Shown here piece after piece: positions 1,978-6,024 of a stretch of DNA of 64,000 bases (the stretch's first letter is position 1; the number at the start of each line of letters is the position of its first letter). The DNA comes from Rhodospirillaceae bacterium (GTDB lineage Bacteria; Pseudomonadota; Alphaproteobacteria; Dongiales; Dongiaceae): NCBI GenBank assembly GCA_008012315.1, contig SSEL01000037.1:62001-126000 (forward strand), written 5' to 3'. Below the pieces are notes generated by a model. The model searched no databases and was not told where the DNA came from. It worked only from the letters and a program-made list of their open reading frames with translations. A program made the position numbers and the translations under genes.

Positions 1978-2066
1978 GCCCGCTTGGTGGAATTGGTAGA
2001 CACAAGGGACTTAAAATCCCTCGGAAGGAGACTTCTGTGCCGGTTCGAGTCCGGCAGCGGGCACCA
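1978..2066 (+). tRNA. tRNA-Leu (anticodon TAA)
   Basis: An 89-base class II tRNA with encoded CCA. The acceptor stem GCCCGCT (1978-1984) pairs with AGCGGGC (2056-2062), followed by discriminator A and CCA. The anticodon stem AGGGA/TCCCT encloses loop CTTAAAA (2010-2016) with anticodon TAA at 2012-2014. The long variable arm and the GGTTCGAGTCC T-arm are standard for Leu. Bases 2010-2049 are repeated exactly at 5050-5089, so its 3' half served as the attachment site of an integrated element; the tRNA itself remains intact. Confidence 0.97.
2010..2066 (+). repeat. attL-like site: 3' half of tRNA-Leu
   Basis: The stretch from the anticodon loop to the CCA end of tRNA-Leu. Forty bases (2010-2049) are identical to 5050-5089, and similarity continues imperfectly to the acceptor end. 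Integrases of the tyrosine recombinase family commonly use such a tRNA 3' half and leave a copy at the far end of the inserted DNA. Confidence 0.85.
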
Positions 2067-2146
2067 AATCAGTGTTTTAGTAACTGCCGCCGATGGCAGG
2101 ATCTGCAGTTGGACGAATCAGACCGCAGTTTGCAGTCGGCATCAAC

Positions 2147-2782
2147 TTAAGCATATGCTCCGTTCCCCCAAAACGCTCTCAATTGTTCGGGTGTACCGTT
2201 GAATAGATCTCTATCGCAGCGTCCGATGCCCTTTATCTCATGCGGCTCGGGTCCTATTCCCCCGTCGGTATACTGCCATAGTGTCCAGTTTTCCCAGCAA
2301 GGTGGGACGACCGGAGTGGGACCATATTGGGCTAGCCAAAACCAGCATTTAGAAAGGATCGGATCCTGCGCAGTACCTAAAACTCTTTTGATCGAGTGAC
2401 CACTGTAGAAGCCCGGATACCGGCCGAGTTTGTCTCGAACATGGGTTATGAAAGCGCGGGCCTCCTCTAGTGGCATTGAAGTACCAACCGGGTTGTCTTC
2501 GAAATCTAGTACAAGAAGAGTCGAATCCGATGGTTGTGCTATCTCGAGGAAGTGTACCGCTTGTGAAATACCATTGGCGCCGGTTCCGAAATGATACGCT
2601 CCAAATAGCAAATCATTTTTAATTGCTGCTTTCCGATTGGTATCGAGCATCGGGTCAATATAGGCCTCCCCCTGCGTTGCCTTGTGAATTACACCGAGTA
2701 GCCCGTCCTCTGCTGCTTTGCGAAGATCGACACGCCCATTGTGATGCGACAGATCTGCAATTGCGTTCGTTGAAGCGTCCAT
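2147..2782 (-). CDS. glycoside hydrolase family 25 lysozyme
   Basis: A 211-residue GH25 muramidase-like protein, expected to cleave the MurNAc-GlcNAc bond of peptidoglycan. Family landmarks are in order: ADLSHHNG near residues 8-15 (first catalytic Asp), GVIHKATQG, a YHF segment, LVLDFEDN (the D-x-E catalytic pair), WLAQYG and LWQYT. No signal peptide is apparent, as in phage endolysins that rely on a holin or another route. The ATG at 2782 has an AAGGAAGA ribosome site; the frame runs upstream to 2842 without support. It lies inside the tRNA-Leu element with two other minus-strand genes and is visibly less GC-rich than the flanking genes. Confidence 0.85.
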   Translation of the reverse strand: MDASTNAIADLSHHNGRVDLRKAAEDGLLGVIHKATQGEAYIDPMLDTNRKAAIKNDLLFGAYHFGTGANGISQAVHFLEIAQPSDSTLLVLDFEDNPVGTSMPLEEARAFITHVRDKLGRYPGFYSGHSIKRVLGTAQDPILSKCWFWLAQYGPTPVVPPCWENWTLWQYTDGGIGPEPHEIKGIGRCDRDLFNGTPEQLRAFWGNGAYA

Positions 2783-2838
2783 TTCGTCTTCCTTTTTGGC
2801 GTGCTCTTCAATGGATGGGCATCGAATCGCTCTGTTAG

Positions 2839-3522
2839 TCAAATGCAGTCAACTTGGGTCGGCTCCACATTATAAAAAGCAATTGTCCACTGCAGATCAT
2901 TCGTCGCGCGTAGGGTGACTGCTTCTTTTCGGCATTTCTGGTCTTTGGCATATTTCGAAATAAAGAAGGTTCGATTGTAGAGGCCCACAGGGACGGCCGG
3001 TGGATTGCGAACCGTTTCTACTCCGATCTTTTTCCTGCTCACTAAATTGCCTGATGCGCCCAAGATCGCGTCGTACATTTCTTTCCAACCGTCGATAGTC
3101 AGCCCTGTTTCTTTCACGAGTTCCTTGTCGAAAAGGTCAAATGTTGCCTGCATATCGTGGGAGTCCAATTGGGTGAGAAATTCCTCGATTACAGGTTTGG
3201 TGGGTGCGCTAGGAGTTTTTAAATTGGCGATACTTTTTGTAATTGCTGGCGACGAAAACCAAACAATAACAAACAGAGCCAATGCTCCGCCTGCCTTCAC
3301 AACATGGGGAACCTCAGCCTCAATAGAACCTGGGAGCATGGCACCCACACCACCGGCAGCTAAAGAGAGGATCAATTTGAAGGTGAATATTTGCCATTCC
3401 GAGGGATTAGGAAGCCAGACGGCAAATCCAAGCATTATAAAGAGAAAGGCAGTGCCAAAAGCAAATGCCAAGAGCAAATTGATGTTTAGTTTCCCATCAA
3501 CCATTGCCATGAGCTTTTGCAT
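2839..3522 (-). CDS. membrane protein with C-terminal DUF4019-like domain
   Basis: A 227-residue protein with two or three hydrophobic segments in the first 100 residues (about 14-36, 45-65 and 78-93) and a soluble C-terminal part of about 110 residues. That part has the layout of DUF4019: a helical start (FLTQLDSHDMQATFDLFD), a W-x-x-x-Y helix, an R-KKIG strand and a last strand with ..LRATNDLQWTIAFYNV. DUF4019 has no assigned biochemical role. It lies 56 bases upstream of the GH25 gene in the same direction, so it may act with it, for example as a membrane partner for lysozyme release; this is inference. Part of the low-GC cargo of the tRNA-Leu element. Confidence 0.6.
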   Translation of the reverse strand: MQKLMAMVDGKLNINLLLAFAFGTAFLFIMLGFAVWLPNPSEWQIFTFKLILSLAAGGVGAMLPGSIEAEVPHVVKAGGALALFVIVWFSSPAITKSIANLKTPSAPTKPVIEEFLTQLDSHDMQATFDLFDKELVKETGLTIDGWKEMYDAILGASGNLVSRKKIGVETVRNPPAVPVGLYNRTFFISKYAKDQKCRKEAVTLRATNDLQWTIAFYNVEPTQVDCI

Positions 3523-3568
3523 AGTAACCTCTTTCCGACTTCGAAGCCGATCCGAGACGCTTCTGCAG

Positions 3569-4036
3569 TTAGGGATATTGGCTGTAACACTTCATCATAA
3601 TGGCTAGCCGATTTGTCCCCGGAGGATGCATTATATCGCCTGGTTTGTTCCAAAGCAGCGCGATCAAAGAGTTAAAGGCCTGAGGTGGGAACCAACCTTG
3701 ATTGCGTCCTGCCTTGATCGCCCAGCAATCCGCAGCCGACTCATCGGCGCCAACTTTGTAATGGCCGCATTCATGCGCTGCGATGTAAAGCTTAAGTGGC
3801 GTAGGCATCGGACCCATAATGCCTGGATGAAGATATATGTGGCCCTGTCCGTCCGCTATCGCGACATCAGGGATATTCGGAGTAACTACAAACACGACCG
3901 GCCCACAACTGAATGGAAGTCCATCGATATAGAATGTGCCTGGAGGAAAAGCCTGCGACCAGGAAACCGTTGGCGTCAGGAGAATAATGCAGCTGGCAAT
4001 GATGGTGATGGCACTAGTGAGAGATCGATTCCGCAT
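3569..4036 (-). CDS. secreted HExxH zinc-peptidase-like protein
   Basis: A 155-residue exported protein. The ATG at 4036 follows a GGGAGGG ribosome site and a signal peptide of about 27 residues ends at SWSQA. The mature part holds AAHECGHYKVGADESAADCWA around residues 95-115. HECGH fits the HExxH zinc motif, and the following DESAAD could supply a third acidic ligand as in gluzincin-type peptidases. Cysteines flanking this region may form disulfides. Small proteins of this shape are usually annotated as hypothetical or metalloprotease-like. First gene of the three-gene minus-strand cargo of the tRNA-Leu element; substrate unknown. Confidence 0.6.
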   Translation of the reverse strand: MRNRSLTSAITIIASCIILLTPTVSWSQAFPPGTFYIDGLPFSCGPVVFVVTPNIPDVAIADGQGHIYLHPGIMGPMPTPLKLYIAAHECGHYKVGADESAADCWAIKAGRNQGWFPPQAFNSLIALLWNKPGDIMHPPGTNRLAIMMKCYSQYP

Positions 4037-4394: not shown

Positions 4395-4924
4395 ATCTAA
4401 GAAGGTCGCACATGGCGCAAGCGGTTGGACGAAGGACAGCAGCAAGAATGCGATCCCCAACGCTGGCTTCGCATTGAAGGCCCTCCTTGGTGCCAACAAG
4501 CCGTTGAGCGAGACACCACGACAGGCACCGACGATTGAGTCGAGGAGATGATAGACCTCGGCAACGCTGATGGCCCGATTAACTGCAAGCTTCCCTGCTG
4601 TCGGCCATGTTCGACGAGGCGATGAAACAGGTCATGCCCCAGTCGCACGCATTTCTCGTTCCCCAGCGAACACGAAGGGCACATCCGTCGCCTGGACGAG
4701 GCTGAGGAAGACACCATCCTGCGGCTGATGAAGCCGTGGGGCTATGACGATCACGCCGATCTGGTGATCCTCGGCATCGACATCAGAATGCGGATGGGTG
4801 AGATGCCGCGGGTCGGGACCTAGACTCCAACTGGCGGACCAGCATGGCGACGGTCTGGGTCAATAAGACTTACAAGCCTCGGTCGTTCGCGCTGACGAAG
4901 CGCCGAAAGAGGCTGCCCAACATC
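4395..4924 (+). pseudogene. decayed tyrosine-recombinase integrase
   Basis: No intact frame, but pieces of a phage-type integrase can be read in order in shifting frames. One N-terminal piece reads FALKALLGANKPLSE (about 4468-4515). Next come SAMFDEAM (about 4605-4630), then EAEEDTILRLMKPWGYDDHAD and VILGIDIRMRMGEM (about 4698-4815), which is the box containing the first catalytic Arg. The last piece is TVWVNKTYKPRSFALTKRRKR (about 4851-4910), the beta-hairpin after it. At least three frame changes and a stop separate these pieces, and the C-terminal HxxR...Y box is missing. The gene lies beside the displaced tRNA-Leu fragment, as expected for the integrase of this element. Confidence 0.75.
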
Positions 4925-5049
4925 GCATGAAGGCCATTCCGGTAGGCTGTTCCCATATACCACCCGTGGTTTCGGTAGGCATGGGACGGGCCGCAGGCCA
5001 AGATGGAGATGACCGAGTTCAGATTTTGTGCCGCACCTCTAGAAATGCT

Positions 5050-5105
5050 CTTAAAATCCCTCGGAAGGAGACTTCTGTGCCGGTTCGAGGCCGGCAGGGG
5101 CGCCA
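5050..5105 (+). repeat. attR-like partial copy of tRNA-Leu 3' half
   Basis: Forty bases identical to the anticodon-loop-to-T-arm part of tRNA-Leu (2010-2049), then CCGGCAG after one mismatch, then a degenerate acceptor end. It cannot be a functional tRNA because the 5' half is absent. It marks the right boundary of the integrated element. Confidence 0.85.
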
Positions 5106-5167
5106 TCTAGTTTAGGCAGTTTCAGTCCGTTAGGTCTCTCGTTTAGCTCCGGGAAAATTGAACGCCG

Positions 5168-5508
5168 CTATTGCTGTTCAGGGCACGGGCGCTGAATAAT
5201 GCGCCATTCGCCGCCTTCAGGGATATAGGTTGACGTACAACAAGTGAGATAGTCACCGGAGTCGGTGCGATGCGCCTTCGCCAAGTAGGCAAAACGGTGG
5301 CATCGCCTGCATGGCTGCTTGTCTGCAGTGACATCTCAACTTCTGTCCATCGCGGTGCATCTTTAAGGCTCTCGATGATCGCCCTGCCCTTCATGACGCC
5401 AATTGGTGCGGCGAAGGCCATGATGCAGTCCGGATGAACGATTGCCTTAAAGGCATCGACACCTTCCAGCCAGAGCCGCCGTTCACTGTGCCAAAGCAGA
5501 TCGGCCAT
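5168..5508 (-). pseudogene. SnoaL/DUF4440-like protein, frameshifted
   Basis: A small NTF2-fold (SnoaL/DUF4440-type) gene whose frame is broken once. The ATG at 5508 has a GGAGGAAT ribosome site and begins MADLLWHSERRLWLEG. The first half reads in one frame to GDATV. The second half reads in another frame as FAYLAKAHRTDSGDYLTC ... YIPEGGEWRIIQRP to a TAG at 5170-5168. Adding one base at the four-A run on the plus strand (about 5291-5294) restores a single 113-residue protein ending in the expected 'GGEWRIIQ' strand. Without the repair the frame runs on to 5143 with an unrelated tail. This could be a real null allele or a homopolymer sequencing error. It lies just outside the tRNA-Leu element. 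Confidence 0.75.
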
Positions 5509-6024
5509 AGATTCCTCCGATAAGGATTTGCGCGGTCGGCACGCCAATATCACCGGCTACGTTAGCAGTGTAATGCCATGTTGCGATGTGCCTTGGTGGG
5601 GTAATTTTTATTTCATCGGCGAGACGTTAACGCGCGCCAGCCTTGCTGAAGCGCGCCGCGCCTGCGGGAGCCGGGATTGGGCGCCAATCCTGCCTGCGCT
5701 TTGCCCGTTGGACTTCACTGTGTTAAATTGAGAATAATTTGTAAAATCAGGAATGAACTGCGGCAGTTTGAAGCAAAGATTGCATGACGCTTGCTTCTTC
5801 AGCGGCGCAATCGATAATTGGCGCCGAGAGCCGATGATGCAGTGCCTGCCCGGGTGATATGCAGGCGACGCCAGTTAATGATTTGTAAGCGAGGGGTGCC
5901 GGTCGGGTAGGTCAGTCGGTTGCCGTTTCCATCGGGGATATTCAGCGGCGGCTGGTGGGGCTAGGGGGACAGAAATGTTTTCGCGACGGCGGGTGACCCA
6001 CTCTGACGTAAGGGGTGCGCAGAG
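5509..6024. other. upstream region of the cbb3 operon
   Basis: About 515 bases without a convincing gene, between the broken SnoaL-like gene and ccoN. It should carry the cco promoter. A perfect 7-bp inverted repeat with a 3-base spacer (GGATTGG-GCG-CCAATCC, 5674-5690) is visible. I found no clear FNR/FixK box (TTGAT-N4-ATCAA). Confidence 0.45.

Follow-up and report, generated by a model that had tools for sequence, protein, structure and literature searches.

We examined three adjacent genes at positions 2147 to 4036 of a 64,000-nucleotide stretch of contig SSEL01000037.1 from a Rhodospirillaceae bacterium (the whole stretch is called the window here). A preliminary description, made from the sequence alone, had read these genes as a possible three-gene module for lysis, antagonism or defence, formed by a GH25 muramidase, a DUF4019 membrane protein and a secreted HExxH protein, and lying beside a decayed integrase. 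The locus thus raises the question of which of these genes belong together, and of what those that do might be doing in the cell.

A tRNA-bounded island of low GC content

The genes lie in an island of 3.0 kb, which is bounded by tRNA-Leu(taa) and by a copy of its 3' half. The features of the island are:

1978-2066, plus strand: tRNA-Leu(taa) (ARAGORN), integration site and left end of the island
2010-2060, plus strand: left direct-repeat copy (att-like), 3' part of the tRNA, 51 bp (repeat search)
2147-2782, minus strand: GH25 muramidase, 211 aa (P0001; Pfam PF01183, PHROGs endolysin)
2839-3522, minus strand: membrane protein, 227 aa (P0002), three-helix (3TM) domain followed by DUF4019 (PF13211, phrog_5814, hydropathy)
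3569-4036, minus strand: HExxH protein, 155 aa (P0003), with an N-terminal export-type stretch (motif, hydropathy, model)
4626-4820, plus strand: possible tyrosine-recombinase integrase remnant (resemblance by eye only)
5050-5100, plus strand: right direct-repeat copy, 96% identical to the left one, right end of the island

The repeat of 51 bp contains an exact core of 40 bp, and none of 100 shuffles gave a match even at 3 mismatches. With the copy of the tRNA 3' part at 5050-5100 as right boundary, the three genes are inside the island, and such a distal direct repeat of a tRNA 3' end is the arrangement of a tRNA-integrated genomic island. All three open reading frames are intact and are separated by 46 bp (HExxH to membrane gene) and 56 bp (membrane gene to GH25). 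The GC content across 2147-4036 is 0.494, and none of 568 overlapping stretches of the same size, taken in 100-base steps from 5200 to the window end, was equally low (mean 0.622, minimum 0.572); the two lowest-GC blocks among the 64 one-kb blocks of the window were 2001-3000 and 3001-4000. The intact, same-strand, low-GC genes of the preliminary description were therefore borne out, and each ATG has upstream of it a purine-rich stretch of the kind expected for a ribosome site.

The decayed integrase was not confirmed. The resemblance at 4626-4820 was seen by eye only: Pfam and PHROGs returned nothing, tblastn gave no match against plasmids at E 0.01, and the best match against phages was an annotated integrase with a non-significant E of 0.7. 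Five frame pieces of 4401-5009 contained no Pfam family and three of these pieces no PHROG, while the integrase-like ORF of a related island, used as query, had no convincing match. The window island contains no phage structural gene. No empty site could be demonstrated, because the island flank (5101-6024) had no similarity to the relatives' sites.

Split or extra pieces of the tRNA 3' end, with other genes between them, were also observed near tRNA-Leu(taa) in 5 of the 16 family relatives (G005, G007, G008, G009 and G014). This pattern suggests that tRNA-Leu(taa) is a hotspot of integration in this family; profile searches found none of the GH25, membrane and HExxH genes at those five sites.

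The GH25 muramidase gene

The assignment to GH25 was clear with Pfam PF01183 (E 6.6e-31, 108.5 bits against a curated cut-off of 27) and with the PHROGs endolysin family (E 3.8e-34), and known muramidases were matched in a sequence search of solved structures. Residues D10, D93 and E95, which we take to be the catalytic acidic residues of GH25 (D and DxE), were invariant across six aligned proteins. Hydropathy gave no hydrophobic stretch and no signal peptide was seen, in agreement with the muramidase without signal peptide that had been proposed. The nearest relatives in phage records were lysozymes/endolysin of Wolbachia phage WO (47-48% identity) and those in plasmid records were found in two Azospirillum, as single genes next to hisG, with 43-45% identity; a viral-contig scan with this protein found no relative.

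Matches to GH25 were present in 8 of 385 genomes of the class, window genome included (E <= 1e-25). Profile searches found neither the membrane nor the HExxH gene at any of 16 other GH25 places (0/16), comprising all 9 other places from the class search (about 2.5 to 6.5 kb of DNA per side), 6 plasmid or phage places drawn from 48 matched plasmid and phage records (2 to 7 kb) and one further place in the same genome (1.5 kb). A weak GH25-like match in the same genome (L003, E 0.007) was left out of these counts, as it was not recovered by the profile search. Among the neighbours of the window gene, Pfam and PHROGs identified no holin and no phage structural family, and the arrangement is not that of a phage lysis cassette. 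The gene is read here as a separate phage-derived (phage-WO-type) lysozyme gene.

The HExxH protein

Hydropathy of the HExxH protein gave a single, N-terminal hydrophobic stretch. The protein contains the motif HECGH (H88, E89 and H92), followed by E99, A102 and D103, and HECxH together with these three downstream residues was invariant in all six aligned proteins. This agrees with what we take to be the hallmark of M48 peptidases, HExxH plus a downstream glutamate in ExxAD. No Pfam family was found at E 1, including any M48 sequence profile, and we therefore call the protein M48-like and not M48. The AlphaFold2 model was good (pLDDT 87.9) and BepA ranked first in the structural comparison (Z 9.2, rmsd 3.5 over 123 residues), with a Z only moderately above the background of no clear match and a weak Foldseek E of 0.033. 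Searches of a viral fold library with the model (E <= 0.001) and of solved structures with the sequence family gave nothing and nothing meaningful, respectively. Based on the motif and the model, the protein is probably a mini M48/BepA-like zinc peptidase, and its N-terminal stretch predicts export to the periplasm.

The membrane protein

The DUF4019 match (E 7.4e-11, 42.9 bits against a curated cut-off of 26.5) is preceded by three hydrophobic stretches within the first 90 residues, and residues 17-93 matched phrog_5814 (E 6.1e-17). An EccD-like transmembrane match remained under its cut-off (17.2 bits against 30), and a sequence search of solved structures with the family gave nothing meaningful. 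The AlphaFold2 model was poor (pLDDT 51), so the topology is based on hydropathy: the three helices would be the membrane anchor, and DUF4019 is predicted to face the periplasm, because positive loops usually stay inside. Together with PF01183, PF13211 and the HExxH motif, the hydropathy profiles (three stretches in one protein, one N-terminal stretch in the other) fit the three identities given in the preliminary description.

A holin identity was considered and rejected for this protein. Its best phage family, phrog_5814, is of unknown function, and the sole hint was a Phage_holin_2 match under the cut-off (E 0.079) on a distant relative (P0008).

In proteins encoded on a P. aeruginosa plasmid, on plasmids of Cronobacter and Salmonella and in the G-FI interval of P2-type phages, a soluble part precedes the three-helix domain; some other proteins have the domain close to their N-terminus. 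On the basis of these plasmid and phage occurrences, and of the cassette arrays described below, both this domain and DUF4019 are present on mobile DNA. Near-identical DNA to the insert of the P2-type phages was found in 1 of 5426 E. coli genomes.

On the P. aeruginosa plasmid the gene of the three-helix membrane protein is beside Hachiman HamA (L008 5455-7618). In the P2-type phages, a two-gene insert (86 aa, and a three-helix membrane protein of 233 aa) lies from tail fibre assembly G to tail sheath FI (L010 4245-5207; L143 4001-4963). DUF4019 alone was observed as a small protein with a signal-like start, with four copies in one genome (L136-L138), in arrays of small one-way genes that resemble (chromosomal) integron cassettes.

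Recurrence of the pair in a Pseudomonas-type phage

A viral-contig scan with the HExxH protein found one relative, on contig L025 (48% identity over residues 1-152; 48-49% over the full length of the protein). A 3TM-DUF4019 gene comes directly after this homologue, in the same order and on the same strand as in the window, and the two genes overlap at ATGA. Between the window and L025 HExxH genes, codon position 2 was conserved the most (0.707) and position 3 the least (0.367). For the L025 HExxH protein export was read by eye only; the hydropathy test flagged no stretch of that type in it.

Contig L025 contains lambda-type tail genes and a phage-type transposase, and the pair is inverted between tail genes K and lipoprotein/I, with a GC content of 0.462 vs 0.616 for K-L and 0.574 for I. 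Among 19 matching phage records, none of which covered more than 80% of the query, the best was Pseudomonas phage PseuP_222, which aligns at 77-83% with both flanks (L025 1176-2153 and 3673-5295). The sequence between them (2154-3672) had no blastn match in PseuP_222, where a different lipoprotein gene stands, and vB_Pae_CF53a has two small unrelated ORFs at the K-I spot. The gene content of the K-I interval differed in all 3 Pseudomonas-type phages compared (L025 2154-3672, L147 4431-5416, L148 4238-4878). Because these other phages carry other genes there, we regard the K-I interval as a site of variable cargo, in which the pair is a moron-like cassette; extra genes that are absent from the same spot in relatives and differ in GC, as in phage morons, were found for L025 only.

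Other viral-contig scans added little to this picture: those with A4 and with P0012 found the L025 contig only, the one with A3 found L025 and a contig with the membrane domain alone (L028), and those with the window membrane protein (P0002) and with P0004 found no relative. The L025 membrane protein had no relative in phage records (tblastn), nor had the window HExxH protein in phage and plasmid records. Contig L145 is the same phage as L025, ends at a contig end, and was for that identity not counted as an independent locus.

Occurrence of the genes in other genomes

Both genes are rare. In the class search the membrane protein was matched in 4 of 385 genomes (E <= 1e-4, window included), three of which had the membrane domain only, and the HExxH protein in 5 of 385 (E <= 0.001, window included); one HExxH match (G036, E 6.8e-4) was left out of the place counts, as the profile search did not recover it. 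In the phylum, the membrane/DUF4019 profile matched 18 of 398 genomes, with the window match as the only one in that profile sweep carrying both domains, and the HExxH profile matched 6 of 388. None of the 16 family relatives had the window membrane gene (E <= 0.001).

By profile, the pair was found at 2 of 14 HExxH places (the window and L025), and is known from these two lineages only. The other 12 places, several of which are close to a contig end, had no membrane gene, so the HExxH peptidase can stand alone; these relatives adjoin unrelated genes in other genomes. A scan of 84,980 genomes with the HExxH alignment gave two relatives, both among the 12. The family was also observed as three tandem genes on a Hyphomicrobiales MAG contig (L029 1293-3050).

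A third 3TM-DUF4019 gene was found on a plasmid of Rhizobium sp. NXC14 (40% over 96%), followed after 10 bp by a gene for a papain-like protease with a Peptidase_C70 match above the cut-off; this protease has an export look by eye, and the hydropathy test flagged no stretch in it. Each of the three independent 3TM-DUF4019 genes therefore adjoins a protease-type gene (HExxH twice, papain-like once), which is suggestive, at three cases and with tools that reach close relatives best.

Since the HExxH and membrane genes recur together while GH25 had neither of them beside it at the 16 other places examined, we describe the locus as a two-gene cassette and reject the three-gene module. The part of that proposal that stood is the pair, which has co-occurrence in one other lineage and phage structural neighbours (it lies between tail genes); for GH25 no co-occurrence was found at those 16 places.

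Proposed function and alternative explanations

Starting from the ends and gene content of the island, the second occurrence of the pair amid phage tail genes, and the peptidase-like motif and model, we propose that the locus is the remnant of a tRNA-integrated element with a separate lysozyme and a moron cassette whose products act in the periplasm, superinfection exclusion being their most likely role. We give this reading, which is drawn from sequence, a probability of about 0.4. A small element, of which the present stretch would be the remnant, would have inserted at the tRNA-Leu(taa) 3' end, carrying a phage-type accessory (moron) unit of two genes and a phage-WO-type GH25 gene alongside. 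The first gene of the cassette would encode a small zinc peptidase that is exported into the periplasm, and the second a three-helix inner-membrane protein with DUF4019 in the periplasm. Peptidase and DUF4019 protein might act jointly in the envelope, with DUF4019 as a docking or regulating partner, and the lysogen would be protected against superinfecting phages, most likely at the step of DNA injection. The pair probably alters the cell envelope, perhaps shutting out other viruses, and an antagonism or defence role, as in the preliminary description, is possible for it. Its inverted position amid tail genes in the phage makes a role in lysis unlikely.

As an alternative, DUF4019 could restrain a secreted peptidase that is harmful or otherwise in need of control, in the manner of effector-immunity or addiction pairs, by which the element would be retained in the cell. 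The translational overlap in L025 would fit such an inhibitor, and so would the protease neighbours, of two unrelated classes, at all three 3TM-DUF4019 genes; however, the 12 HExxH places without DUF4019 mean that the partner is not always needed, and none of the three proteins had an above-cut-off match to a family for toxin delivery or secretion systems; we consider this explanation doubtful. Those same solitary HExxH relatives beside unrelated genes would be expected if the pair consisted of a quality-control peptidase of M48-like type and a DUF4019 membrane protein that had envelope housekeeping roles and hitch-hiked by chance on two elements. A chance pairing is hard to obtain with genes this rare (HExxH in 5 and the membrane gene or domain in 4 of the 385 genomes), and the same order in an island and in a Pseudomonas-type phage, both of locally low GC, argues against it; housekeeping is improbable. 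A lysis or antagonism module of all three genes, in which the membrane protein would form a holin-like pore, GH25 would be the endolysin and the peptidase would assist, we regard as highly improbable. It would account for an endolysin-like GH25 gene on the same strand and only 56 bp behind the membrane gene, but not for the 16 GH25 places without partners, the inverted pair amid tail genes, or a best phage family that is of unknown function and not holin.

A more far-reaching version of the exclusion reading appears unlikely to us. It would be a new periplasmic protease-based phage exclusion, in which a minimal zinc peptidase and an anchored DUF4019 move between bacterial tRNA islands and the phages of Pseudomonas. 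The three-helix domain would then be an anchor common to various envelope or defence proteins of phages and plasmids, whose soluble parts can be exchanged, and the zinc peptidase could give way to other proteases.

Searches of defence and protein family collections gave no name to the pair: PADLOC on nine proteins had no significant match (one weak, E 0.043, on a distant relative) and NCBIfam had no match above the cut-off for the three proteins. Both moron cassettes and tRNA islands are familiar kinds of element. In the titles and abstracts of the literature searched there was no prior description of the HExxH and 3TM-DUF4019 pair; searches for a periplasmic protease toxin with DUF4019 gave nothing relevant, those for Pseudomonas tail-region morons nothing useful, and the P2-borne accession numbers had no mention. 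In a library of 5.39 million papers, DUF4019 came up in a single paper, on machine learning for Salmonella case severity, as far as the parts of the text available go. Through its recurrence, the pair links DUF4019, a domain that has been little studied, to a defined partner and a phage setting, which makes its function testable; if the pair does exclude phages, it would be a small protease-based envelope defence.

Comparison with known systems

The HExxH protein has in common with BepA and other M48 zinc peptidases the HExxH motif and the downstream ExxAD, and BepA ranks first in its fold comparison; it differs in its length of just 155 aa, in having no Pfam family and in its Foldseek E of only 0.033, and it lacks the further domain of BepA. 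The GH25 protein is similar to the endolysin of Wolbachia phage WO along nearly its whole length (47-48%) and retains D10, D93 and E95, whereas the phage gene is located between terminase and portal genes and the window gene has no phage structural neighbour. The WO endolysin is a member of the horizontally transferred lysozymes described by Metcalf et al. 2014 (PMC4241558). The membrane protein shares with phrog_5814 and with WP_016233338, from the P2 G-FI interval, a common domain that spans some 85 residues and contains three hydrophobic helices, and which in those proteins is C-terminal to a soluble part, whereas in the window it is N-terminal and followed by DUF4019.

Among exclusion systems, the closest by description are SieA of phage P22, an inner-membrane superinfection exclusion protein (PMC10883804), and the HK97 moron gp15 (in the references of PMC11436027). 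Unlike them, the window pair has two genes, one of them a peptidase, and we claim no sequence link; the likeness is that of an accessory phage product predicted in the inner membrane, with the L025 copy being an extra low-GC insert amid tail genes.
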